Below the pieces are notes generated by a model. The model searched no databases, was not told where the DNA came from, and saw only the letters and a program-made list of their open reading frames with translations. From Winogradskyella arenosi (lineage in GTDB: Bacteria; Bacteroidota; Bacteroidia; Flavobacteriales; Flavobacteriaceae), in contig NZ_QPJO01000001.1 of the NCBI RefSeq assembly GCF_003337305.1, positions 62,001 through 126,000 of the forward strand: a stretch of DNA of 64,000 nt, written 5' to 3'. Shown here piece after piece: positions 3,301 to 16,154 of this stretch. A program made the position numbers and the translations under genes. Every line of letters begins with the position of its first letter. Within the stretch, counting starts at the first letter, position 1.

Positions 3301-6150
3301 ATGTCAGATAAAAAACGCCTATTTCTAGTAGATGCCTATGCTTTAATTTTCAGAGGTTACTACGCTTTTATAAAGAACCCAAGAATAAATTCTAAAGGAG
3401 AAGACACCTCCGCCATCATGGGTTTTATGAATTCCCTTTTAGATGTCATTAAACGTGAACGTCCCGATCATTTAGCCGTTTGTTTTGATAAAGGGGGGAG
3501 TGCCGACCGTGTAGAACTCTTTGAAGCTTATAAAGCCAATAGAGACGAAACGCCTGAAGGTATAAAAACGGCCGTGCCTTATATCTATAAGATTTTAAAA
3601 GCCATGCATATTCCTATTATGGTTAAAGAAGGTTTTGAAGCCGATGATGTTATTGGAACTTTAGCTAAAAAAGCTGAAAAAGAAGGTTATCAAACCTTTA
3701 TGGTTACTCCAGATAAGGATTTTGCCCAATTGGTATCGGAGAATATTTTTATGTACCGTCCTGTTTTTGGTGGTGGTTATGAAACTTGGGGCATTCCAGA
3801 AGTACAAAAGAAATTTGAAGTTACAGACCCGCTTCAGGTTATTGATTATTTAGGGATGATGGGCGATGCCTCTGATAATATTCCCGGCTTACCAGGAGTT
3901 GGTGAAAAAACAGCGAAGAAGTTTTTAGCCGCTTATGGGACTATGGAAAACCTTTTTGCCAATACTCATGAGCTTAAAGGCAAGATGAAAGAGAAAATTG
4001 AAGCCAATAAAGAACTCGGTTTATTATCGAAACAACTGGCCACGATTATGCTGGATGTTCCGGTAGAATTTAATGCCGAAGATTTTGAAATGTCTGAACC
4101 TGATATCCCTAAAGTCACTGAGATTTTTCAAGGCTTAGAGTTTAGACGTTTAATAGATAATTTTACTAAAACCTTTACCTCAGCAACGGAGGCCACAGCA
4201 AAAACAAGCAGCACCACAACCAAGGCCTCAACTCCAGCAGCAAAAGAAAACACGAGTGCTAATGCCGGTGCAGGTCAGTTTTCATTATTTGGGGGCGGCG
4301 AGACATCTGCAACTGATGGCGCTACCACCGTAACCCGTAAAACTGCCGAGAACACCTCTCACTTTTACCAAAGTGTGGCTCCCGGAATGGCCACAACACT
4401 TTTTGTAAAGACCTTAATGCAACAAACATCGGTTTGTTTTGATACCGAAACTACTGGATTAAATCCGCTAACAGCAGAGCTTGTTGGCATTGCTTTTTCT
4501 TGGGAAACCGGAAAAGGGTTTTACGTCCCATTTCCTGAAGCTAAAGATGAAGCCCAAGAGCTTATTGAAGTTTTCAGACCTTTTTTCGAATCAAAAAGCA
4601 TTGAAAAAGTCGGTCAGAATTTAAAATACGATATCAAAGTCTTAGCCAAATATAACATTCAGGTTAAAGGCAAATTATTTGATACCATGTTGGCCCATTA
4701 TTTAATTAATGCCGATATGCGTCATAACATGGATGTGCTCGCGGAAACCTACCTCAACTACACTCCAATTTCTATTACAGAACTTATTGGTAAAAAAGGC
4801 AAGAATCAATTGTCTATGCGCGATGTTGCGTTAGAAAAGCTTACCGAATATGCCGTAGAAGATGCGGATATCACCCTTCAGCTCGCTGCTCATTTTCAGA
4901 ATGAATTAGGCGAAGCCAATACCCAAAAATTATTCGACGAGATTGAAATTCCATTGCTACGTGTTTTAGCAGCTATGGAATTGGAAGGGATTAACCTAGA
5001 TATAGACTTTTTAAACTCTCTTTCCGAAGCCTTAAATAACGACATTCAAAATTTAGAACAAGAGATTTATACGGCTGCCGGCGAAGAATTCAATATTGCC
5101 TCTCCAAAACAATTGGGGATTGTGTTGTTTGAAAAAATGAAATTGGTAGACAAGCCTAAGAAAACCAAAACCGGACAATATTCTACCGCAGAAGATGTGC
5201 TGAGCTACTTGGCTAAGGAGCACAAAATTGTTCAGAATGTCTTAAACTACCGAGGGCTTGCCAAACTAAAAAGCACCTATGTAGACGCCTTACCTTTACA
5301 AGTACAGGAGGCAACAGGACGTGTGCATACCGATTATATGCAAACTGTTGCAGCCACAGGACGTTTGAGTAGTAACAACCCGAATTTACAAAATATTCCG
5401 ATTCGTACGGAGCGTGGGCGCCAGGTGAGAAAAGCCTTTGTGCCACGCAACGAAGACTATACCTTACTCGCTGCAGATTATAGCCAAATTGAACTACGAA
5501 TCATCGCGGCTTTAAGTGAGGAAGAAACCATGATAGAAGCCTTTAAAAATGGTGAAGATATTCATGCCTCTACCGCTTCAAAAGTATTTAATGTGCCTTT
5601 AGAAGAAGTAACCCGAGAACAACGTAGCAATGCTAAAACGGTTAATTTCGGAATTATCTATGGTGTGTCTGCCTTTGGTCTAAGCAACCAAACCGATTTA
5701 TCGCGTGGGGAAGCCAAAGAACTTATTGATACCTATTACGAGACCTACCCAAAGCTTAAAGCTTATATGAGTAAGCAAGTCGATTTTGCTAGAGATCATG
5801 GTTATGTGTCTACGGTTTTAGGGCGTCGTCGTTATCTTAAGGACATCAATTCCCGTAATGCCGTAGTTAGAGGTGCCGCAGAACGAAATGCCGTGAATGC
5901 ACCTATTCAAGGCTCTGCTGCCGATATTATAAAAATCGCCATGATTAATATTTATAACAAACTGGAAGCCGGTCAATATAAATCGAAAATGCTCTTACAA
6001 GTACATGATGAACTGGTCTTTGATATCTACAAACCTGAACTTGAAGAACTCACCAGCTTAATTAAAACGGAAATGGAAAATGCCTTTAAATTAGAAGTGC
6101 CTTTGGATGTTGAAGTGGATACTGGTTTGAATTGGTTGGAGGCACATTAG
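3301..6150 (+). CDS. polA: DNA polymerase I
   Basis: This 949-residue, full-length family A polymerase fills gaps and removes RNA primers. The N-terminal third is the 5' nuclease (FRGYYAF near residue 20, helix-hairpin-helix GLPGVGEKTAKK near 200). After a low-complexity Ser/Thr/Ala linker (about 298-350) comes a 3'-5' proofreading domain whose acidic residues are intact: D381 and E383 in DTET, D444 in LKYD, and Y517/D521 in YAVED. The polymerase palm carries motif A D726-YSQIE, motif B from R775 (RSNAKTVNFG-type) and motif C VHDE with D903. Proofreading therefore looks functional, unlike in Taq-type enzymes. The gene ends 19 bases before the AT-rich accessory cassette. Confidence 0.98.
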   Translation: MSDKKRLFLVDAYALIFRGYYAFIKNPRINSKGEDTSAIMGFMNSLLDVIKRERPDHLAVCFDKGGSADRVELFEAYKANRDETPEGIKTAVPYIYKILKAMHIPIMVKEGFEADDVIGTLAKKAEKEGYQTFMVTPDKDFAQLVSENIFMYRPVFGGGYETWGIPEVQKKFEVTDPLQVIDYLGMMGDASDNIPGLPGVGEKTAKKFLAAYGTMENLFANTHELKGKMKEKIEANKELGLLSKQLATIMLDVPVEFNAEDFEMSEPDIPKVTEIFQGLEFRRLIDNFTKTFTSATEATAKTSSTTTKASTPAAKENTSANAGAGQFSLFGGGETSATDGATTVTRKTAENTSHFYQSVAPGMATTLFVKTLMQQTSVCFDTETTGLNPLTAELVGIAFSWETGKGFYVPFPEAKDEAQELIEVFRPFFESKSIEKVGQNLKYDIKVLAKYNIQVKGKLFDTMLAHYLINADMRHNMDVLAETYLNYTPISITELIGKKGKNQLSMRDVALEKLTEYAVEDADITLQLAAHFQNELGEANTQKLFDEIEIPLLRVLAAMELEGINLDIDFLNSLSEALNNDIQNLEQEIYTAAGEEFNIASPKQLGIVLFEKMKLVDKPKKTKTGQYSTAEDVLSYLAKEHKIVQNVLNYRGLAKLKSTYVDALPLQVQEATGRVHTDYMQTVAATGRLSSNNPNLQNIPIRTERGRQVRKAFVPRNEDYTLLAADYSQIELRIIAALSEEETMIEAFKNGEDIHASTASKVFNVPLEEVTREQRSNAKTVNFGIIYGVSAFGLSNQTDLSRGEAKELIDTYYETYPKLKAYMSKQVDFARDHGYVSTVLGRRRYLKDINSRNAVVRGAAERNAVNAPIQGSAADIIKIAMINIYNKLEAGQYKSKMLLQVHDELVFDIYKPELEELTSLIKTEMENAFKLEVPLDVEVDTGLNWLEAH

Positions 6151-6169
6151 AAAGTTTGAATATTTCAAA

Positions 6170-6418
6170 ATGAACGAATTCAAAACTATAAAAACAGAAT
6201 ATCTAAGAGCTTCAATAACTATAGAAACGGTTTTAGTTTCAAATAAAAATTTAAGTGACATTTTCTTTATTTATAATTATGAAGGAACTTCATTTAGAGT
6301 CTTTAAAACACATCTTGAATTGGTAAACTTTTTTTTAAATAAACATAAAAGTATGTATCATTTTGATACAGTAGAAGAGGTAGATGATTTTTTATCTGAA
6401 TTTAAATTAGTCGCATAG
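6170..6418 (+). CDS. Unknown 82-residue protein, first gene of Nudix-helicase cassette
   Basis: No family is recognised. The 82-residue product has no signal peptide and no membrane segment. It begins with a strand-rich half and ends in helices with an acidic VEEVDDFLSEF tail, like a small soluble alpha/beta protein. It starts with ATG at 6170, 19 bases after the polA stop, and ends three bases before the Nudix gene, so it is probably the first cistron of the cassette. Its sequence is visibly more AT-rich and Lys/Asn/Phe-rich than polA, matching the two genes after it and suggesting shared acquisition. It could be an accessory or regulatory partner, but that is inference. Confidence 0.6.
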   Translation: MNEFKTIKTEYLRASITIETVLVSNKNLSDIFFIYNYEGTSFRVFKTHLELVNFFLNKHKSMYHFDTVEEVDDFLSEFKLVA

Positions 6419-6421
6419 GAT

Positions 6422-6808
6422 ATGAAAATAATTCCTGTTACATGTGCTATAGTAAAATTTGATGATAAAATATTAGCTGTTCAAAGAAGTGAAACAATGA
6501 AACTTCCGTTAAAATGGGAATTTGCTGGTGGTAAAATTGAAGAAGGCGAAACAGAAATAGAATGTATAAAAAGAGAAATATCTGAAGAATTGAATATTCA
6601 TATTGAAATTAAAGAAAAATTAACTCCCGTAATACATAAATATCCTGATTTTAAAATAAAATTGATTCCATTTACTGCAGACTATGTTTCAGGAGAGTTG
6701 AAGCTTAAAGAACATTCTGATTTTGTTTTAGCAAATAAACAAGAATTGATTAATTTAGATTGGGCAGAAGCTGATTTACCTATTTTAAAAGAGTTTATCG
6801 AATTATGA
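6422..6808 (+). CDS. Nudix hydrolase (MutT-like, nucleoside triphosphate pyrophosphohydrolase)
   Basis: This 128-residue protein has a near-perfect Nudix box at residues 37-59 (G37, E43, R51-E52, E55-E56), with Asn58 replacing the usual Gly near the end. It belongs with MutT-type enzymes that hydrolyse (oxidised or modified) (d)NTPs to monophosphates with Mg2+. The length is that of a stand-alone MutT. Its stop overlaps the start of the helicase gene by four bases (ATGA at 6805-6808), which argues for translational coupling and a shared role. The true substrate (8-oxo-dGTP, another altered nucleotide or a signal nucleotide) cannot be read from sequence. Composition is AT-rich like its neighbours. 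Confidence 0.9.
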   Translation: MKIIPVTCAIVKFDDKILAVQRSETMKLPLKWEFAGGKIEEGETEIECIKREISEELNIHIEIKEKLTPVIHKYPDFKIKLIPFTADYVSGELKLKEHSDFVLANKQELINLDWAEADLPILKEFIEL

Positions 6809-9800
6809 ATCAAGGAATATACGAACAGTTGGTAACACAACTAGTGTCCGAAAAATTAAACGAACTTGATAAAAATAAATTCTTTCTAAAGAAAGACTTA
6901 ATTGATAAAGAGGAAGTATCTAATGTCCTTTCTAAACATTTATCCAATACATTAAAACAAGCATTTAGTCTTTTAGGTAAAAACAAAGTCGAACAACAAA
7001 TTCAAATTTCGAATAAAATAATCAAACTTCTAAAAGAAGAAATAGGTAAACAAGAATTTGATGATGACCTAATAAATATTAAAGGTGAAATTTTAAAAGC
7101 TGTATTCTCAAAAACTGATGCACATTTTTCAAATTTAGATTTACACCTACAAGAAATTACCCCGTACACTACTCTAACCCAAAGTGAATTATTTACTGGA
7201 GGTAATGGAGGCTTATCGCTAGAAAGCGAGTTAAAAAAAGAGATTCTTTCTTCTAATCAAATAAATTTGTTAGTCTCTTTTATAAAATTTAAAGGAATTA
7301 TAATTCTTGAAAAAGAACTAAGAGAATTCACAGAACGAGGTGGAAAGCTAAAAGTTATAACAACAACTTATATTGGAGCTACGGACTACAAAGCAATCCA
7401 ATTACTATCTAAACTACCAAATACTGAAGTTAAAATATCTTACAACACAAGCAATGAAAGATTGCACGCAAAAGCATATTTATTTTACAGAAATTCAGGT
7501 TTTCACACGGCATATATTGGTTCTTCTAATTTTTCAAGGTCAGCTTTAACAGATGGTTTAGAATGGAATTTAAAAATTACGACAAAAGAAGTAAGTCATA
7601 TAATTGATAAATTTCAGAAGACATTTGATGCTTATTGGCAGAGTGATGACTTCGAAGTATTTGACGATTCCTTACATAAGGAGAAATTACAAACCGCATT
7701 AAAGCGAAGTAAATTCAGTAAACCTTACGAAAACACAACTGCTTTTTTTGACCTTAAACCTTTTCCTTATCAAAATGAAGTTTTAGAAAAACTAGAAGTT
7801 GAAAGAACTGTACATAATAGACACAAAAACTTAATTGTTGCGGCAACTGGAACAGGAAAAACTGTGATTTCGGCTTTCGATTATAAACGTTTCAAACAAA
7901 ATAATAAATCCGCAAAACTTCTTTTTCTTGCTCACAGAAAAGAAATATTACAACAATCACTTTCTACCTTCCAAGGTGTTCTAAGAAATAATAATATTGG
8001 AGAGTTATGGGTTGATGGTTTAGTACCTGATAATTTTGAGTATGTTTTCGCTTCTGTTCAAACTGTAAACAATCAGCTTGAAACAGCCAATATACCTGCC
8101 GATTATTATGATTTTATCATAATAGATGAATGTCATCATCAAATCGCGAATAGCTACAGGTCGACAATCAATTATTTTAAACCCAAAATACTTCTTGGAC
8201 TTACAGCTACGCCTGAAAGAATGGACGGTGGAAATATTCTAGAAGATTTTGAGCACAAAATTGCTGCTGAAATTAGACTACCTGAAGCAATGAACAGAAA
8301 ATTACTTTGTCCTTTTCAATACTTCGGAATTACTGATAGTATAGATTTATCTAACATTAAATGGACCAAAGGACGATATGTTGCAAGTGAATTAACAGAT
8401 ATTTATACCGAAAACGACAGAAGAGTTGGAGAAATAATAACGTCCTTAGACAAATACACCAAAGACATCAATGACGTTAGAGCATTAGGTTACTGTGTAT
8501 CTATGGAGCATGCTAAATATATGGCTGAAAAATTTACTTTAGCAGGGTTAAAAGCCAATTATCTAACCAGTAACAATAGCCAAAATAGAGCAAAGGTTAG
8601 ACAAGAACTAGAAAAGAAAGAAATCAATTATTTATTTGTCGTTGACATGTTCAATGAAGGAGTAGATATACCCGAAATTGACACCGTTTTATTTTTAAGA
8701 CCTACAGAAAGCTTAACCGTTTTTTTACAACAATTAGGAAGAGGCTTGAGACTACATGAAGACAAAGATTGCCTAACCGTTTTAGATTTTGTTGGAAATT
8801 CTAGACCAGAATATAACTTTGAAAGTAAATTCAGAGCATTAATTGGCAAGACAAACACAACAGTTATAAAAGAAGTAGAAGACAATTTCCCGCACTTACC
8901 TTTGGGCTGTTCAATAATTCTAGAAAAAAAGACAAAAGAAACAATTCTTAAAAATATCTCAGCAGCAACGTCATTAAACAAAAAGAAACTAATTCAAAGA
9001 ATACAACAGTTCAATCACGACACAAATTTACCGTTGACTATCGGCAATTTTAGCACCTTTTATAATATTCCATTAGAGTCTATATATAAAAGAGGGAGCT
9101 GGAAGCGATCGTGTCAACTTGCCGGTAAAATAAAAGAATTTGATTCTAATAATGAAAAAGAAATTGTTTCTGCAATTTCGAAGAAATGGCTTTCAACAAA
9201 TTCATTAACTTACTTCTCCTTTCTTTTGAAAGTTGCCAAATTGAATTTTAATATCAAGATTTCAGATTATAATTCAAGTGAAAAAACTATGCTCTTAATG
9301 TTGCATTATGATGTATGGCAAAAGGAAGCAGGCTTTGATTCTTTAGAAAAAAGCATACAAGCTATTGGTTCAAATATAGTTTTAGTTGAAGAAATAATAG
9401 AAATTCTCGAGGTGTTAATTGAAAACATAGATTTTAAAGAATTACCTATTGAACTCCCTTATGAACAACCATTAAAATTACATAGTCGATACACTAGGGA
9501 TCAAATTTTAGCTGCTTTTAAGTTTAGTAGTTTTGAAAAAAAATCATCTAACAGAGAAGGTACAGCAGAAAACAAAGCGTTAAACACTGAAATATTATTC
9601 ATTAACCTAATTAAATCTGAAGAAAATTTCTCTCCAACAACAATGTACGATGATTATGCTGTGAACGAATTAATATTCCATTGGCAAACTCAAAACTCAG
9701 CAAGACCAGATTTAGGCAAAGGCTTATCATACGTAAAGCATATAAAAAACGCGAAAAGAATACTACTATTTGTTAGAGAAAAAGCAAAAAATGAATTTGG

Positions 9801-9942
9801 TAATAGTTTAGGGTATGTTTTTATTGGAGAAGGCACACTGAAAGACCATTATGGCTCTAAACCAATGAGTATTAATTGGGAACTTAGCGAACCTATGCCA
9901 CATTACTTATGGAAGGATGCTGCTAAATTATCGATTGGCTAA
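6805..9942 (+). CDS. PLD-nuclease / SF2 helicase / DUF3427 protein
   Basis: This 1045-residue multidomain protein has four parts. Residues 1-120 are helical, with no recognised domain. About 125-280 is a phospholipase-D-like nuclease module with a single HxK motif (H221, K223) and a GSSN strand (239-242). About 315-690 is a superfamily 2 helicase: Walker A GTGKT (K352), DECH box (D441-H444), TATPER motif III and the motif VI QLGRGLR (643-649). The C-terminus, clearly from Y896 on, matches DUF3427, including FHWQ at 958-961. This architecture is known in accessory DNA-processing and restriction-like proteins. One HxK per chain implies a dimeric nuclease site. It is translated in overlap with the Nudix gene. 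Likely role: ATP-driven DNA cleavage or remodelling in repair or phage defence; unproven. Confidence 0.93.
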   Translation: MNQGIYEQLVTQLVSEKLNELDKNKFFLKKDLIDKEEVSNVLSKHLSNTLKQAFSLLGKNKVEQQIQISNKIIKLLKEEIGKQEFDDDLINIKGEILKAVFSKTDAHFSNLDLHLQEITPYTTLTQSELFTGGNGGLSLESELKKEILSSNQINLLVSFIKFKGIIILEKELREFTERGGKLKVITTTYIGATDYKAIQLLSKLPNTEVKISYNTSNERLHAKAYLFYRNSGFHTAYIGSSNFSRSALTDGLEWNLKITTKEVSHIIDKFQKTFDAYWQSDDFEVFDDSLHKEKLQTALKRSKFSKPYENTTAFFDLKPFPYQNEVLEKLEVERTVHNRHKNLIVAATGTGKTVISAFDYKRFKQNNKSAKLLFLAHRKEILQQSLSTFQGVLRNNNIGELWVDGLVPDNFEYVFASVQTVNNQLETANIPADYYDFIIIDECHHQIANSYRSTINYFKPKILLGLTATPERMDGGNILEDFEHKIAAEIRLPEAMNRKLLCPFQYFGITDSIDLSNIKWTKGRYVASELTDIYTENDRRVGEIITSLDKYTKDINDVRALGYCVSMEHAKYMAEKFTLAGLKANYLTSNNSQNRAKVRQELEKKEINYLFVVDMFNEGVDIPEIDTVLFLRPTESLTVFLQQLGRGLRLHEDKDCLTVLDFVGNSRPEYNFESKFRALIGKTNTTVIKEVEDNFPHLPLGCSIILEKKTKETILKNISAATSLNKKKLIQRIQQFNHDTNLPLTIGNFSTFYNIPLESIYKRGSWKRSCQLAGKIKEFDSNNEKEIVSAISKKWLSTNSLTYFSFLLKVAKLNFNIKISDYNSSEKTMLLMLHYDVWQKEAGFDSLEKSIQAIGSNIVLVEEIIEILEVLIENIDFKELPIELPYEQPLKLHSRYTRDQILAAFKFSSFEKKSSNREGTAENKALNTEILFINLIKSEENFSPTTMYDDYAVNELIFHWQTQNSARPDLGKGLSYVKHIKNAKRILLFVREKAKNEFGNSLGYVFIGEGTLKDHYGSKPMSINWELSEPMPHYLWKDAAKLSIG

Positions 9943-10045
9943 ACCCCACCCAACCCACATAAACCCCTAAAAAACAACAACTTTAAAAATAAATGCTTAA
10001 ATTAGGTAGGTAAAGATTACAAGGCTATTAATTAATCTTCATCTC

Positions 10046-10936
10046 ATGAGCAAAAGCAATTTAAATCCCTTAGACCTCAGATCTGTTCTTTCTTTTAAAT
10101 CCCTACTCTTAAAAATCATTGGCGTCTCTTGTACGGTAATTGCCATAAAAGGCTTTATGATCCCTAACCTCTTTTTAGATGGTGGCCTCCTAGGCATTTC
10201 CATTCTTATTCATGAGTTTTATCACATCGATGTTTCTATTCCCTTAATACTTCTCAACCTACCTTTTGTCTATATCGGTTATAAAAAATTCGGAAAAAAC
10301 TTTGCGGCCCACACCTTTATATCCTTGGTATTCCTTGGCCTGCTCTTAAGTGTGTTAACCGTCCCAACGGTCACCCAAGATCATTTTTTAGTGGCTGTTT
10401 TTGGCGGGGTTTTTATAGGGCTTGGTATTGGCCTAATCATAAGAGGCGGCGGTGTTATTGATGGTTTAGAAGTTATTGCGGCTTACACCAATACCAAATT
10501 CGGACTTACCACTACCGAAATCATTATGGCCATTAACACCACCATCTTCTTAATTATTGCCTTTTTCTTAGGTCTAGAAAAAGCCATGTACTCCATTATT
10601 ACCTTTTTTACGGCTTTAAAAATTTCAGATTATGTAGTCGATGGTTTTGAAAAATTAATCTCCCTAACCATCATCTCCCCCAACGATCAACTGATTAAAG
10701 AACTTATCGTAAATCAATTCAACAAACCCATCACCATCTATAAAGGCGAACGCGGAAACCTTCCTGGAAGCTACGACATCAAACACGATTGCGAGGTTAT
10801 TGTTACTGTGGTCACCCGATTAGAGGTTCATAAAATGCGAAAAGCCATAGCCAAAGCAGACCCCAAAGCGTTTATGTTTATACAGAATATTAATGAAGTC
10901 GATGGCGGCCTGATTAGCAGAAAAACTGGACACTAA
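10046..10936 (+). CDS. YitT family membrane protein (DUF161 plus DUF2179)
   Basis: This 296-residue inner-membrane protein has about five hydrophobic segments in residues 15-205, including the glycine-rich GVFIGLGIGLIIRGGGVIDG loop typical of YitT proteins, followed by a soluble C-terminal DUF2179-type domain (about 210-290) with VTRLEVHKMRKAIAKADPKAF. Function in the family is unknown; transport or sensing is suspected. Its stop codon overlaps the ATG of the following HD gene (TAATG at 10934-10938), so the two are translationally coupled. Base composition returns here to that of the main chromosome, marking the right edge of the AT-rich cassette. Confidence 0.9.
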   Translation: MSKSNLNPLDLRSVLSFKSLLLKIIGVSCTVIAIKGFMIPNLFLDGGLLGISILIHEFYHIDVSIPLILLNLPFVYIGYKKFGKNFAAHTFISLVFLGLLLSVLTVPTVTQDHFLVAVFGGVFIGLGIGLIIRGGGVIDGLEVIAAYTNTKFGLTTTEIIMAINTTIFLIIAFFLGLEKAMYSIITFFTALKISDYVVDGFEKLISLTIISPNDQLIKELIVNQFNKPITIYKGERGNLPGSYDIKHDCEVIVTVVTRLEVHKMRKAIAKADPKAFMFIQNINEVDGGLISRKTGH

Positions 10937-11517
10937 TGAAACCGAGTCTCTCTACCATACGCCATGCTGTTATTCGTTATTTAAACGAAAACCTACCGGA
11001 GTATTACACCTACCATAACACTCAACACACCTTGTATGTATATGAAAAAGCCCAGTATATTGCTAAAAAAGAAAACGTAAACCCGGTAGACATAGACTTA
11101 TTAAAGGTAGCTGCTTTATACCATGATATTGGTTTTGCAAAATCGCATATAGACCACGAAAAGTTAGGCTGTGCCATGGCCACAAAACAATTAAAGGCCT
11201 ATGGGTTTTCAGAAGTAGAGATCAACACGATTTGCGGAATGATCATGGCTACCAAAATTCCACAAAATCCCAAAACCTTGTTAGAACAAATTTTAGCCGA
11301 TGCCGATTTAGAATATTTGGCCACCGCTAAGTACCCAAGCACAAGCCAAGCCTTATACCAAGAATTACTGCATTTTAATCCAAATCTAAGTGAAACCGAA
11401 TGGCATAATATTCAGATCGCATTTATTAAAAATCACAACTACCACACCGCCTACTGCAAACGCTATAAAACGTTCCGAAAAAATAAAAATTTAGCACGCT
11501 TAGAAGCCACACTCTAG
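10936..11517 (+). CDS. HD domain phosphohydrolase
   Basis: This 193-residue soluble protein has the HD-fold metal ligands: H31 in the HNTQHT segment, the H63-D64 doublet in LYHDIGF, and a later Asp in ILADADLEYL. HD proteins of this size hydrolyse phosphate esters of nucleotides or cyclic nucleotides; the specific substrate cannot be assigned. The start ATG overlaps the stop of the YitT gene by one base, which suggests a joint function at the membrane, for instance membrane protein plus cytosolic hydrolase. The C-terminus is basic (KRYKTFRKNKNLARLE). No terminator-like hairpin was seen in the 212 bases that follow. Confidence 0.88.
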   Translation: MKPSLSTIRHAVIRYLNENLPEYYTYHNTQHTLYVYEKAQYIAKKENVNPVDIDLLKVAALYHDIGFAKSHIDHEKLGCAMATKQLKAYGFSEVEINTICGMIMATKIPQNPKTLLEQILADADLEYLATAKYPSTSQALYQELLHFNPNLSETEWHNIQIAFIKNHNYHTAYCKRYKTFRKNKNLARLEATL

Positions 11518-11729
11518 GCATCCTCCGCGTATAATTTCAACTATTTTTACGTTAATAATCTTAATAACAGAGATTTACAACTAATTATTCACTATATTTA
11601 GTAACCTTCATTAGGCGCTTCAAAGAACAACAAACCTATTCTACTTAGAGCTGTGTACACCATACGGTTTTCAAATTAAGCCTTTAGTTTGAGTATCGTG
11701 ACTATTAATTCAATCTAACTTATTAATTC

Positions 11730-12224
11730 ATGAAAACATCGCACCGATTATTTCAAATGCTTGTTGTTGCACTGATTTTTAATGTAACCAACTTGTTTGC
11801 CCAAGACCTCTACTACATCACCATCCATGTTGAAACCGACAAGATTTCTAATCAAAATAAATTAGGAGTCTGTTATTTTACTTCGGAAGCGCCAAACGGA
11901 GACATCACCACTTCCACCGGTAATATTGAAGATTTCAATATTGAGGTCAAGCCTTCAGATATAATTATATGGAGAGGGGTGTCTAGTACCAATCCTGAGG
12001 GCGATATGGTTAATATCCGGTCTATAAACCACCAAGGCGGCCAAAACGTCTTTGATAGAAATATATTACACGGCAATGGCCAAACACCAGAAGTGGTGAT
12101 TGGCGAGGTAAACCCAGGTACTCAAGGTCGTATTCAAAAATACGCCATTAAAATCACGGTTTATAATGAAGACCGCAAACGTGGCAACTACCGTATTGAC
12201 CCCAAAATAACCGTTAAACCCTAA
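11730..12224 (+). CDS. Secreted protein of unknown function, upstream of adenylate cyclase
   Basis: This 164-residue protein has a signal peptide (MKTSHRLF, hydrophobic core, cleavage after NLFAQ). The mature part looks all-beta, with no cysteine pair; it has recurring beta-like stretches such as YYITIHVETDKIS and YAIKITVYNEDRKRG, and a central WRGVSS motif that recalls cupredoxin-like folds, though no domain can be named. The gene ends nine bases before the adenylate cyclase start, so the two are probably co-transcribed. A role as an exported sensor or ligand for the cyclase is only inference from that spacing. Confidence 0.7.
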   Translation: MKTSHRLFQMLVVALIFNVTNLFAQDLYYITIHVETDKISNQNKLGVCYFTSEAPNGDITTSTGNIEDFNIEVKPSDIIIWRGVSSTNPEGDMVNIRSINHQGGQNVFDRNILHGNGQTPEVVIGEVNPGTQGRIQKYAIKITVYNEDRKRGNYRIDPKITVKP

Positions 12225-12233
12225 TCTTCTAAA

Positions 12234-14150
12234 ATGAAATTCAAGGCCGCACGTTTGTTCTTAACGTCTTTAAAAACCTGTTTGCTTGCAGGTTTTTTTT
12301 GCCTCTCTGCCTTGGGCATCAGTCAAGAAAAATCAGAAACGCATCCTCTTGAAATTAAATACAGCAATAACAACTTTTCCAAAGAAGAAAAACTAGCGCT
12401 TCTCAATGAATTGGCACAAAACCATCCCGATCCACAAAAAAAGCTACACTACAGTATCGTATTTATAAAAAACGCCAAAGCCTTAGATTCTACACATCTA
12501 CTGTTTCAAGGTTATATGCACAAAGGCGCTGCTCTTAGATTAAAAAGCGATTTTACCCAAGCCTTAGAAAGTTATTTTAAAGCGGCCCACAGGGCTGTTA
12601 AAGACAACCACCAGCGCAATCTCGGTTTGGCCCATATTTCTATTGCCGATGTGTACTCCATTACCAGCAATCATGAAAATGCCGTAAAATATTACACCTC
12701 AGGCCTCGATTTACTAAAGCAAGAAAATGATCTTGAAAATTATGCCAACGGCCTACTAAACTTAGGCGATGCTTATTTTAATGAAAAGGACTACGATCTG
12801 GCTATGGAATGTTTTATGGAATCGGGCCTTCTATTTCGTAAAATTAATTCTTTAGAAGGGCACGCCTTTGTATTAGGCAATATGGGAATGGTCTATGCCG
12901 AACAAGGGAAGGACGATTTAGCCGAAGCCAATATCAATGAAGCCATTCACCTCTTAGAAGACCTACAATTGCACTACCCCATTTCGGTGTACCTCATTTA
13001 TATGTCCGACATCTATGCTGCTAAATCCAACAGAAGCGCAGCTTTAGCCTACGCCAACAGAAGCTTGAAATTAGCCACAAAATACGGCCTAAAAGAGCAA
13101 ATAAGTGATGCTAATTTGCAACTCTCGCTCTTATACGAACAGCAAGGCGGATACAAGAAATCTTTACAACATTTTAAAGCACACGTCACCTTTAAAGATA
13201 GTGTGGCCAATATTGAAAAAGTGCAAAAAATGGGCGATTTACGGACCGCCTTTGAAGTTTCAAAAAAACAAACTGAAGTAGACCTGCTCACCCAACAGCA
13301 AAAAGTTCAGAATATTCAAGTCGCTTTATTAAACCAACAAAATAAGAACAGACAACATCTCGCCATTGCTACCATCACTGCTTTGTTTTTAATTTTAATG
13401 ATTGCCTTTGGTTTATACAGACGTAACAAATACATCACTAAAACCAAAATTATCATTGAAGAGGAAAAGCAACGTTCAGAAAACCTATTACTCAATATTC
13501 TACCTGAAGAAACAGCCTACGAACTTAAAACCAAAGGCAAAGTCGAGGCCAAACGCTTCAATTCGGTAACCGTTTTATTTACGGATTTTAAAAGCTTTAC
13601 AAGTTATTCAGAAAAGCTCACCCCAGAGAAATTAGTAAAGAGTGTGGATTATTATTTTTCTGGATTTGATAGAATTATTGAAAAATATGAACTCGAAAAA
13701 ATAAAAACCGTAGGCGACTCTTATATGTGTGCCGGAGGCTTACCCTTTCCAACCGCAGATCATGCCATAAAAATGACTTTAGCGGCCTTTGAGATTCTTC
13801 AATTTACCGAAGCGACGAAACAGTTAAACCATCCGGCTATTGCGCATTTCGATATTCGTATTGGCATCAACACAGGTCCTGTAGTTGCCGGTGTTGTGGG
13901 CACAAAAAAGTTTGCCTATGACATTTGGGGAGATACGGTGAATGTGGCCTCGCGAATGGAATCGAATTCCATCCCCGGAAAAATTAATATTGCCGAAAAC
14001 ACCTATCAATTAATTAAAGCTGCTTTTGACTGTGAATACCGCGGAGAAATTGACGTTAAAAACAAAGGGCAATTACATATGTACTTTGTAAAAGGCATTA
14101 AAGAAAAAACCTTCTATGCGTTTATGAACGGACAGAAGGCAGGTCTATAA
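12234..14150 (+). CDS. TPR-containing membrane adenylate cyclase (class III)
   Basis: This 638-residue protein has an N-terminal export signal, TPR-type helical repeats (about 90-320) predicted outside the cytoplasm, a transmembrane helix (about 376-395), a short coiled linker (405-425) and a C-terminal class III cyclase domain (440-620). Catalytic residues are complete: metal-binding D451 (LFTDF) and D495 (VGDSY), transition-state N570 and R574 (NVASR). The base-selecting positions are K491 and D563 (YDIWG), the adenine pair rather than the Glu/Cys of guanylate cyclases, so cAMP is the predicted product. The TPR part probably senses an envelope partner. An intrinsic-terminator-like hairpin lies inside the signal peptide codons (12273-12300). 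Confidence 0.93.
   Translation: MKFKAARLFLTSLKTCLLAGFFCLSALGISQEKSETHPLEIKYSNNNFSKEEKLALLNELAQNHPDPQKKLHYSIVFIKNAKALDSTHLLFQGYMHKGAALRLKSDFTQALESYFKAAHRAVKDNHQRNLGLAHISIADVYSITSNHENAVKYYTSGLDLLKQENDLENYANGLLNLGDAYFNEKDYDLAMECFMESGLLFRKINSLEGHAFVLGNMGMVYAEQGKDDLAEANINEAIHLLEDLQLHYPISVYLIYMSDIYAAKSNRSAALAYANRSLKLATKYGLKEQISDANLQLSLLYEQQGGYKKSLQHFKAHVTFKDSVANIEKVQKMGDLRTAFEVSKKQTEVDLLTQQQKVQNIQVALLNQQNKNRQHLAIATITALFLILMIAFGLYRRNKYITKTKIIIEEEKQRSENLLLNILPEETAYELKTKGKVEAKRFNSVTVLFTDFKSFTSYSEKLTPEKLVKSVDYYFSGFDRIIEKYELEKIKTVGDSYMCAGGLPFPTADHAIKMTLAAFEILQFTEATKQLNHPAIAHFDIRIGINTGPVVAGVVGTKKFAYDIWGDTVNVASRMESNSIPGKINIAENTYQLIKAAFDCEYRGEIDVKNKGQLHMYFVKGIKEKTFYAFMNGQKAGL
12273..12300 (+). promoter_or_regulatory. 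Terminator-like hairpin inside the start of the cyclase gene
   Basis: AAAACCTG (12273-12280) and CAGGTTTT (12289-12296) form a perfect 8-bp stem with an 8-base loop, and the T run continues to 12300. It begins 40 bases into the coding sequence of the adenylate cyclase. It has the form of a Rho-independent terminator or attenuator, but it may simply reflect the hydrophobic signal-peptide codons. Confidence 0.45.
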
Positions 14151-14180
14151 AAAAGAAAGCGTCATCACTTAACGACGCTT
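14149..14180 (-). terminator. Intrinsic terminator of ygiQ (minus strand)
   Basis: On the minus strand AAGCGTC and GACGCTT form a 7-bp stem across 14157-14180, followed by a T-rich run (14149-14156). The ygiQ stop codon lies in the loop. Confidence 0.7.
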
Positions 14181-16154
14181 CTGCTTATTTCGTTTTTTGG
14201 GTTTCCCTTTCCCTTTAAAACGCACTTTATCCTCAGGCTTACGCTGATTAAAAGGTACCGCATCATTAAAGGTATTTTTAGCCTCACCTTTCGGTTTATT
14301 TTTACGCCATTTCTCTGTTTTCTCAGGGAGTAAAACATTTAGTAGATCTTGACGGCCTACTTTATTTAAGGTCTTTTTAATCCAAGCTTTATTTTCATCC
14401 TTATACCAGAAGAAAAAACGATGCTGCTCCTCTTTTTCCTTACGTGTTTTAGGCGTATTGACCTTTTTTAAGGTGTAGGGATGGTACCCACTGTAATAAA
14501 TAACTGTAGCTACCGTCATCGGTGTTGGTGTAAACCCTTGCACCTGCTCTAACTGGAAGCCCATATCTTTAGTTTCCGCAGCCAAATTAGCCATATCCTC
14601 CACCTCACAAGCCGGGTGGTTAGAGATAAAATACGGAATCAACTGCAGCTTTAAGCCTTTCTTAATATTAATTTTATCAAAGCGCTCTTTAAACTTATGG
14701 AAATACGAAAACGACGGTTTACGCATCAGCTTTAAAACCGGATCACTAGTATGTTCTGGAGCTACTTTAAGACGTCCCGAAACGTGCTTGGTCATCACCT
14801 CTTCGGTATAATCATCCAATTCCTTAGGATCGGCATTTTTATTAAATTCTGGCACCAACATATCATGGCGAATTCCAGATCCAATAAATGATTTCTTAAC
14901 CTTAGGATGTTTATCAACCGCTTGGTACAATTCTGTTAATGGCTTATGAGAGGTATCTAAATTACTACAAATCACCGGCGAAATACAACTTGGTGCCACA
15001 CACTTATCGCAAATAGACTGCACCTTTCCTTTCATCTGATACATATTGGCACTAGGCCCTCCAATATCAGATAAATACCCTTTAAAATCAGGCATATTCG
15101 CAACCGTATCGACTTCTTTTAAAATCGATTCCTGACTACGCGAGGCAATAAATTTTCCTTGGTGCGCAGAAATGGTACAGAAGCTACAGCCTCCAAAACA
15201 TCCTCTGTGAATGTTAATGGAGAACTTAATCATTTCAAAAGCCGGGATTGGGCCACGCTTATTGTATTTTGGGTGTGGTAATCGGGTGTAAGGCAGATCA
15301 AAAGACGCATCAATTTCCGCTTCCGTCATGGTCGGGTATGGCGGATTAATCATCAAGGTCTTCTCGCCTATTTTCTGAAATATACGACGTGCCGCTAATT
15401 TGTTAGACTCCTGCTCAATGACTTTAAAATTAGAAGCGTACTTCTTCTTATCCTTTAAACAGGTTTCGTGCGATGCAATTTCTACATCTTCCCAATTGCT
15501 GTTCTTTGGTATTTTATCGTTCTTATCCATTAACACAGCCGTTTGCAATACTGTATTAATGCTATTAAAAGGGACTCCTTTTTCTAATAATCTTACAATT
15601 TCTCGCAAGGGCTGTTCGCCCATACCATACACCAACATATCGGCTTTAGACGTTTCCAAAATAGAAGGCATCAGCTGATCGCTCCAAAAATCATAGTGCG
15701 TAACACGGCGTAACGAACCTTCAATACCACCAATTAAAACTGGGGTATCGGGCCATTTTTCTTTTAAAATCTTACTATAAACGGTAGAGGCGTAATCTGG
15801 TCTAAAACCAATATCACCATTTGGGGTATAGGCATCCTTATCGCGCTTCTTTTTATTCGCATTATAGTTACTAATCATAGGATCCATACAGCCACCAGTG
15901 ACACCAAAAAACAATCTTGGCTTCCCTAGTTTTACAAAATCCTGCAGATTATCATTAACGTTTGGTTGCGGTACAATAGCCACACGTAAGCCAAAACTCT
16001 CTAGGAGACGGCCAATTACGGCAGGCCCAAAAGTAGGGTGATCTACATACGCATCGCCGCTAAACAAGATGACGTCAAGCGCTTCCCATCCGCGTATTTT
16101 TACCTCTTTGTTTGTGGTAGGCAACCAATCTGAAAGTTGTAATTCATTCTTCAC
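14169..16154 (-). CDS. ygiQ: YgiQ family radical SAM protein
   Basis: This 661-residue protein belongs to the YgiQ/UPF0313 radical-SAM family. The iron-sulfur cluster cysteines are visible as C319, C323 and C326 in HRGCFGGCSFC, and the N-terminal region (LPTTNKEVKIRGWEALDVI) matches the conserved family start. The last 60 residues are very basic (repeated KKPK-type runs), suggesting nucleic-acid or ribosome contact. The reaction of this family is not established. Translation begins with GTG at 16154; a -7 box ends four bases upstream, so the message should be leaderless. It is convergent with the adenylate cyclase gene and shares only 18 bases of spacer. Confidence 0.92.
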   Translation of the reverse strand: MKNELQLSDWLPTTNKEVKIRGWEALDVILFSGDAYVDHPTFGPAVIGRLLESFGLRVAIVPQPNVNDNLQDFVKLGKPRLFFGVTGGCMDPMISNYNANKKKRDKDAYTPNGDIGFRPDYASTVYSKILKEKWPDTPVLIGGIEGSLRRVTHYDFWSDQLMPSILETSKADMLVYGMGEQPLREIVRLLEKGVPFNSINTVLQTAVLMDKNDKIPKNSNWEDVEIASHETCLKDKKKYASNFKVIEQESNKLAARRIFQKIGEKTLMINPPYPTMTEAEIDASFDLPYTRLPHPKYNKRGPIPAFEMIKFSINIHRGCFGGCSFCTISAHQGKFIASRSQESILKEVDTVANMPDFKGYLSDIGGPSANMYQMKGKVQSICDKCVAPSCISPVICSNLDTSHKPLTELYQAVDKHPKVKKSFIGSGIRHDMLVPEFNKNADPKELDDYTEEVMTKHVSGRLKVAPEHTSDPVLKLMRKPSFSYFHKFKERFDKINIKKGLKLQLIPYFISNHPACEVEDMANLAAETKDMGFQLEQVQGFTPTPMTVATVIYYSGYHPYTLKKVNTPKTRKEKEEQHRFFFWYKDENKAWIKKTLNKVGRQDLLNVLLPEKTEKWRKNKPKGEAKNTFNDAVPFNQRKPEDKVRFKGKGKPKKRNKQKRR

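Follow-up and report, generated by a model that had tools for sequence, protein, structure and literature searches.

Why does the gene of a small Nudix hydrolase overlap the gene of a large nuclease-helicase behind polA, and what would the one enzyme do for the other? The question is raised by a cassette in a stretch of 64,000 nucleotides of the Winogradskyella arenosi genome (contig NZ_QPJO01000001.1, positions 62,001 to 126,000), here called the window. The first-pass annotation had described an 82-amino acid (aa) gene, a Nudix hydrolase and a 1045-aa PLD/SF2 helicase/DUF3427 protein, lying head to tail with a three-base spacer and a four-base overlap, as a possible anti-phage or DNA-damage module. 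Our analysis led to a narrower answer: the two larger genes probably encode a Type IV restriction system that brings along a guard of the nucleotide pool, namely a SauUSI-type nuclease combined with a 5-substituted-dCTP pyrophosphatase. A foreign-DNA defence pairing a nucleotide-pool enzyme with a nuclease-helicase was well supported; no positive support was obtained for a DNA-damage module. The three open reading frames (ORFs) were confirmed as intact and head to tail after polA, all on the + strand, with the spacer between the 82-aa ORF and the Nudix gene and the ATGA overlap between the Nudix and the nuclease gene. The features are, in window coordinates:

6170-6418, + strand: 82-aa ORF, apparently a lineage-specific passenger, function not assigned
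6422-6808, + strand: Nudix hydrolase, 128 aa, PDC-S07 family, predicted 5-methyl/5-hydroxymethyl-dCTP pyrophosphatase; catalytic box R51 E52 x x E55 E56; NudG-type Asp
6805-6808, + strand: ATGA overlap of Nudix stop and nuclease start
6805-9942, + strand: predicted SauUSI-type Type IV restriction enzyme, 1045 aa; PADLOC mREase_IV, 740 bits
7237-7638, + strand: PLD nuclease domain, aa 145-278; HxK = H221-x-K223
7753-8754, + strand: SF2 helicase-like ATPase core; ResIII aa 317-472, Helicase_C aa 554-650; Walker A K352, DECH 441-444
9412-9939, + strand: modelled C-terminal target-recognition domain, aa 870-1045; SRA fold within DUF3427; D950/W960 align with SauUSI D858/W868

Domain matches of the 1045-aa protein (PLDc_2, ResIII, Helicase_C and DUF3427) and of the Nudix hydrolase agreed with the first description. 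Using the PADLOC models, the large protein was matched to mREase_IV, the Type IV methyl-directed restriction enzymes, and a PDB search returned SauUSI (7clg, E 3.5e-81) over aa 146-762. Residues H221 and K352, proposed earlier for mutation, were invariant in 22/22 aligned homologues, together with K223 of the PLD motif and with D441-E442, Q642, R646 and R649, so that Walker A, DE(C)H and motif VI are intact; E55, the third residue proposed, lies inside an intact Nudix box. The DUF3427 end was probed on its own with a profile of the last 176 aa (aa 870-1045) from 32 sequences. Scanning the PDB with this profile up to an E of 1, the sole match was the SauUSI recognition domain (E 6.5e-7). Using an AF2 model of the C-terminal domain (pLDDT 83.8, pTM 0.82), SauUSI and SUVH6 ranked first in Foldseek, and VIA aligned the model to 7clg with a Z of 13.1 (root-mean-square deviation 3.4, 141 residues aligned). 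Among the 50 rows listed by VIA, 7clg was followed by 47 entries with Z 9.0-5.8, which we take to be SRA domains, in part by title or aligned range, before Z dropped to 4.8. In the SauUSI model, the flipped cytosine is within reach of Asp858, which would read it, and of Trp868, which would stack against it (PMC7913695). The counterparts D950 and W960 were both invariant in 32/32 sequences, and in the wider set these positions were kept in 21/22 and 22/22 proteins, respectively; a clear counterpart of SauUSI Tyr831 was not found in the alignment of the C-terminal domain. By its PLD motif, SF2 ATPase and modelled SRA-fold end with a cytosine pocket, the 1045-aa protein classes as a SauUSI-type Type IV enzyme. 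As SauUSI cleaves DNA containing 5-methylcytosine (5mC) and 5-hydroxymethylcytosine (5hmC) (PMC7913695; PMC3874153), the window enzyme is predicted by analogy to cleave only such DNA, in an ATP-dependent manner. At another locus, L035 (genome G148, contig C26), the nuclease match was found inside an open frame listed as 4425 aa long, which may be a fusion or an artefact.

Analyzing the small partner, a match to the PADLOC candidate PDC-S07 was obtained (156.7 bits over residues 1-126; the model, PDLC04899, has no curated cutoff). The protein was found nearer to NudG than to MutT (85 vs 64 bits). It reached 85.4 bits with the NCBIfam NudG equivalog PRK10546, under the cutoff of 156, and is not filed as NudG itself; with the MutT 8-oxo-dGTP diphosphatase model TIGR00586 it reached 64.5 bits, under the cutoff of 97.9. 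The Nudix box GX5EX7REXXEE was kept in 71/71 rows, including 49/49 enzyme-linked ones. At the position of E. coli NudG D118 and MutT N119, a residue which presumably matters for specificity, 41/42 collected Nudix proteins carry an Asp, the lone exception being unlinked and lying 4 kb away from the L093 enzyme. A MutT-type 8-oxo-dGTPase as first choice was rejected, as the score stays below the TIGR00586 cutoff and an Asp is found instead of MutT Asn119. The top relative in the PDB was 3GWY (E 4.8e-25, 43% identity). This protein, Q5LBB1_BACFN of Bacteroides fragilis, is an assayed enzyme with a kcat/Km of 4.8e6 M-1s-1 for 5-methyl-dCTP (5-Me-dCTP), 4.4e6 M-1s-1 for 5-hydroxymethyl-dCTP and 8.5e4 M-1s-1 for 5-OH-dCTP, and with far lower activity on canonical nucleoside triphosphates (PMC5158307). 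The substrates of 3GWY mirror the SauUSI targets, 5-methyl- and 5-hydroxymethyl-cytosine. From this relationship the window Nudix protein is predicted to be a 5-substituted-dCTP pyrophosphatase of the 3GWY/NudG kind. Of the two roles considered for it in the first-pass annotation, the removal of a modified nucleotide fits best, while the making or removing of a signal gained no positive support.

Are the two genes together by chance? A search of DUF3427 loci for Nudix neighbours, suggested earlier, was carried out. Scanning a genome collection of 84,980 species with an enzyme alignment, the best 80 loci of at least 593 stretches were kept as the named set; 8 of them end within 450 bases of the enzyme, leaving 72 evaluable loci. 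A PDC-S07-like Nudix gene was found directly beside the enzyme on the same strand in 27/72 (18 upstream, 9 downstream) and within 3 kb in a further 2/72. The ATGA-type overlap was repeated in 11/18 upstream-linked loci. Upstream placement was the rule in Bacteroidota and downstream placement in Bacillota, neither rule being strict (L109; L096, L099). In a second sample, 395 genomes of the window's phylum with two candidates scored per genome and partly overlapping the named set, the DUF3427 type (>500 bits) was present in 32 genomes, 12 of them with the Nudix gene adjacent and some others cut by contig ends. All 8 rows of a SauUSI-like type from this sample, covering PLD and helicase at 31-37% identity, had the Nudix gene upstream (gene maps were drawn for five). 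Together with a SauUSI-like gene of G028, 9/9 such loci of the phylum and relatives samples were linked. As a control, 20 Type I R-like loci from the phylum sample (10/10 scanned were EcoAI-family R subunits over the cutoff) gave 0/20 with such a Nudix gene in 1.6-2.5 kb on either side, one locus being cut on one side (27/72 vs 0/20, Fisher p = 5e-4), and 15 further loci of other SF2 helicases had none. Looking in reverse from the 20 best PDC-S07 rows, 14 lay beside these enzymes, one abutted an SRA-HNH gene and five did neither. Searching with 3GWY a family of 86 genomes, 15 matches were obtained (best 52%, no close orthologue), and the six best were all beside these nucleases. In viral contigs, 36 nuclease-related loci were found, two of them matching nearly the whole protein, one with the Nudix gene downstream (L264), the other without. 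The plasmid collection held 11 records with relatives of the nuclease; the 4 opened (Peptoclostridium, Hymenobacter, Fusobacterium, Spiroplasma) showed no Nudix gene. One contig (G280 C17:165511-183721) carries both types within about 18 kb; the Nudix gene accompanies the SauUSI-like enzyme and is missing from the DUF3427-type one.

We are aware of the fact that a considerable number of observations weigh against a self-protecting two-gene unit. No such Nudix gene was present in 3 kb or the available flank at 43/72 named loci, 20/20 Gammaproteobacterial ones among them, and none was found in the 4 kb flanks of two SauUSI-like genes from other phyla, on the Fusobacterium and Spiroplasma records (L300, L304). 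Examining 15 of the 20 Gammaproteobacterial hosts for a chromosomal stand-in, a PDC-S07-like protein was detected somewhere in 15/15 (98-147 bits), none over the NudG cutoff. The host of L128 has one of 173 bits on another contig, and 4/5 Nudix-less Bacillota hosts (L098, L104, L107, L126) were without a PDC-S07 match above 85 bits genome-wide. As many nucleases of this type have no Nudix gene nearby, the latter would be at most a helper. The 43% identity to 3GWY and the NudG score below the NCBI cutoff (85 vs 156 bits) are modest, so the substrate is one that we infer. Moreover, high-scoring PDC-S07 proteins also occur beside ordinary genes, and in the congener G002 the Nudix gene is retained where the nuclease was not found. 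These last two observations would suit a general housecleaning enzyme, a MutT/NudG-like remover of oxidised nucleotides carried as a passenger useful anywhere, as would the finding of PDC-S07-like proteins in 392/395 genomes at E 0.001. Nevertheless, such a passenger is improbable: it explains neither the repeated pairing in both gene orders, absent from the Type I R controls, nor a second pairing with an SRA nuclease in G138, and both the NudG-type residue and the score below the 8-oxo-dGTPase cutoff count against it.

The recurrence of the pair also bears on hitchhiking. In a 116-row enzyme tree (FastTree), linkage requires at least 17 changes when 'near' is counted as absent. The linked Nudix proteins split over more than one lineage and formed no single clade, in a short alignment with many unresolved forks. 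At L057 the enzyme groups with L022-L024, L053, L054 and L056 (support 99), while its Nudix protein sits in a mostly SauUSI-linked set of 14 rows (support 98), which indicates a partner swap. The ten rows closest to 3GWY among 71 were all enzyme-linked, nine of them SauUSI-like. In G138 (L219:1792-3052), the gene of a SAD_SRA plus HNH_2 endonuclease, which has only the kind of reader domain in common with the window enzyme, is abutted or overlapped by a PDC-S07 gene. With the same Nudix family beside an unrelated nuclease, this single case suggests that what the pairings have in common is the modified base and not the nuclease. Overall, hitchhiking is an unlikely cause of the pairing. A further point against the proposed unit is that the Nudix gene accompanied only 1/8 SRA loci of the phylum sample, the 7 others having none in their 1.5-kb flanks. 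Relatives of the SRA-HNH gene were found on one plasmid record (Janthinobacterium), with no Nudix gene in its stretch, and none in viral contigs. A different neighbour was noted twice: in G187 (L216:625-2997, - strand) a fusion places a PDC-S07 Nudix domain at the N-terminus of PDC-S41 (Schlafen group 3 helicase, 790 aa), and in G002 (L170:707-3102) the orphan Nudix gene is convergent to PDC-S41. No PDB relative was found for the PDC-S41 protein of G002; possibly, PDC-S41 too is a nuclease acting on modified DNA or a reader of it.

How did the cassette come to lie beside polA? The AT richness relative to polA and YitT, noted in the first-pass annotation, held up: the guanine-cytosine (GC) contents of the 82-aa, Nudix and nuclease genes are 0.233, 0.269 and 0.310, compared to 0.400 for polA, 0.389 for YitT and a mean of 0.374 (standard deviation 0.022, minimum 0.308) for the 42 other genes of the window that encode 150 aa or more. 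The cassettes beside polA in Winogradskyella wichelsiae and Psychroserpens are similarly AT-rich (GC 0.28-0.31, with polA and radical SAM genes at 0.38-0.41). Among the best 80 loci, W. wichelsiae holds the closest named relative of the 1045-aa protein (89%). Ratios of nonsynonymous to synonymous substitution against this species were all well below 1 (82-aa gene 0.19, Nudix 0.09, nuclease 0.05). The 82-aa gene was without a match above curated cutoffs in the family libraries and, among the loci searched, present only here and in W. wichelsiae. It was thus rejected as a component of the module, in which it had originally been included; it stands outside the conserved unit and looks like a local passenger.

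Within the genus, the interval between polA and a radical SAM gene (window 6150-14169, L166-L174) is variable. G009 represents the empty site, where 10 bp separate polA from a radical SAM gene, a homologue of window 14169-16154. The W. wichelsiae site holds the 82-aa gene, the Nudix gene, the nuclease gene and a 308-aa gene; in G255 the pair follows polA, and in G011 it lies elsewhere. The cargo differs among five congeners scanned and mostly matches defence or restriction genes: G016 has an m5C methyltransferase and a weak match to a Type II restriction endonuclease, G006 an m5C methyltransferase and PDC-M26A, G019 Mza genes together with m5C methyltransferases, G014 an AAA_5 gene read as McrB-like from Pfam only, and G002 the orphan Nudix gene adjoining PDC-S41. 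The full-length nuclease was found in 3/60 genomes searched (own genome included; 37/60 of the genus). Presence at the same place in all relatives, raised earlier as a possible objection and tested in part, was therefore not observed; uniform vertical inheritance was rejected, and the site is an insertion hotspot. In Psychroserpens, the Nudix and nuclease genes stand alone between polA and the radical SAM gene, which leaves the conserved unit without a nucleotide-signal synthase. This bears on the idea of a nucleotide signal, made or removed by the Nudix protein, that switches the nuclease on or off. The overlapping genes would be compatible with such a regulatory partner; however, a single SauUSI polypeptide is sufficient with ATP or dATP (PMC3874153), the nearest assayed relatives are hydrolases of modified deoxynucleoside triphosphates (dNTPs), and we regard this explanation as very improbable. 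Downstream of the cassette, at window 10046-14150, lie the genes of YitT, of a protein with an HD domain and of two proteins of 164 and 638 aa, the longer of which resembles a TPR-adenylate cyclase by eye. The YitT and HD genes are absent from this site in the congeners read, and distant relatives (21-23%) of the 638-aa protein lie near polA in G012 and G017. In G011 (L172), the polA 3' end recurs in two broken copies (C1:3843972-3844112 and 3846730-3846939) about 9 and 12 kb past the gene; elements inserting at the end of polA may have left them behind.

Should the nuclease attack 5mC, its carriers might be expected to differ in methyltransferases. The own genome (99.97% complete) had 0 PF00145 matches, and no m5C methyltransferase is encoded in the cassette. 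Comparing the 37 congeneric genomes searched for the nuclease, PF00145 was found in 0/3 full-length carriers (G000, G011 and the 78% complete G022) and in 25/34 others (p = 0.028). In G019, only the last 95 nuclease codons are left beside the radical SAM gene, and the four PF00145 matches of this genome are fragments of just two genes, which also lie here. Such remains, in this single case, are of the kind that a clash of an m5C methyltransferase with an m5C-dependent nuclease would leave behind. Two results again count against the proposal: across the phylum sample PF00145 was not significantly rarer with these enzymes (14/39 vs 165/356, p = 0.24), and G028, with a SauUSI-like gene and the Nudix gene, has an m5C methyltransferase gene.

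What, then, would the pair do? The nuclease would dimerise through its PLD domain, its SRA-type end would flip out and recognise 5-methyl- or 5-hydroxymethyl-cytosine, and the enzyme would translocate with ATP and shred the modified DNA like SauUSI. As an excellent analogue of dCTP, 5-Me-dCTP is built into DNA by polymerases, including those of E. coli, and in cells it may stem primarily from the degradation of methylated DNA (PMC10742078). With degraded methylated DNA as supplier, the nuclease could generate the very substrate that marks its own host. By removing 5-methyl- and 5-hydroxymethyl-dCTP, the Nudix enzyme would close this self-marking loop. The main benefit would be a host chromosome kept free of the mark attacked by the nuclease, and as a second effect modified phages would be deprived of a precursor. 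Turning this order around, the Nudix enzyme might mainly destroy phage-made 5-hydroxymethyl- or 5-methyl-dCTP, leaving replication starved or DNA unmodified, with the nuclease killing the modified remainder. The equal speed of 3GWY on both nucleotides, the position of the unit in a hotspot among defence genes and the patchy linkage suiting a dispensable helper all agree with such offence. We consider it possible, yet rather doubtful as the main role, since by reasoning the few molecules escaping hydrolysis would still mark DNA, and removal of the mark would blunt the nuclease. Self-protection and offence are compatible and not exclusive. Two points favour self-protection: the range of substrates predicted for the Nudix protein mirrors the nuclease targets, and a second kind of SRA nuclease has the same type of partner. 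Whether this reflects a general autoimmunity hazard of modification-dependent enzymes, such that more than one kind of SRA nuclease recruited a Nudix enzyme against the precursor of the attacked base and pool guarding takes the place of a methyltransferase, is a proposition to which we give about even chances.

Type IV enzymes are viewed as lone nucleases, with the host safe because its own DNA does not carry the mark. If the proposal is true, an enzyme barring the precursor of the mark from the dNTP pool provides a second, unrecognised route of self-protection, and nucleotide-pool guarding becomes a new principle replacing the protective methyltransferase of ordinary restriction enzymes. PDC-S07 would gain a substrate, a partner and a role, and a reason for the speed of 3GWY on 5-methyl- and 5-hydroxymethyl-dCTP would be suggested. 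SauUSI-type enzymes and the PADLOC candidate PDC-S07 are known separately. Searching open-access PMC, no literature linking the two was found among the matches listed; in the text available to us, one open-access paper contains both DUF3427 and Nudix, named in separate places.

Comparing the cassette with known systems, the E. coli NudG (Orf135) protein shares Asp118 and Glu33 with the window Nudix protein and has 5-Me-dCTP as a good substrate (PMC5158307; PMC3744803). It is encoded by a free-standing chromosomal gene, and the window protein remains below the NudG equivalog cutoff. 3GWY shares the Nudix fold and box and groups with the SauUSI-linked Nudix proteins and L057, with a support of only 72; its activity was assayed, while that of the window protein is predicted. 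PDC-S07, which the window protein matches with 157 bits, belongs to the PDC-S systems, single-gene defence candidates for which the accessible part of the source (PMC12988326) gives no partner or mechanism in the case of PDC-S07; the window protein, in contrast, is tied to nucleases predicted to depend on modified cytosine. The SRA-HNH endonucleases (TagI/ScoA3IV kind) differ from the window enzyme by their HNH nuclease and the lack of a matched helicase domain, and share with it the SRA reader and, in G138, a partner of the same Nudix family. SauUSI of Staphylococcus aureus (7clg) likewise combines PLD, SF2 ATPase and a C-terminal SRA domain in a single chain, with the Asp and Trp of the cytosine pocket kept in the window enzyme. 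The latter is about 100 aa longer N-terminally (window aa 146 aligns with 7clg 47), ends in a DUF3427-type domain and, in a comparison that covers the SauUSI protein and not its S. aureus neighbourhood, is distinguished by the Nudix gene encoded together with it.

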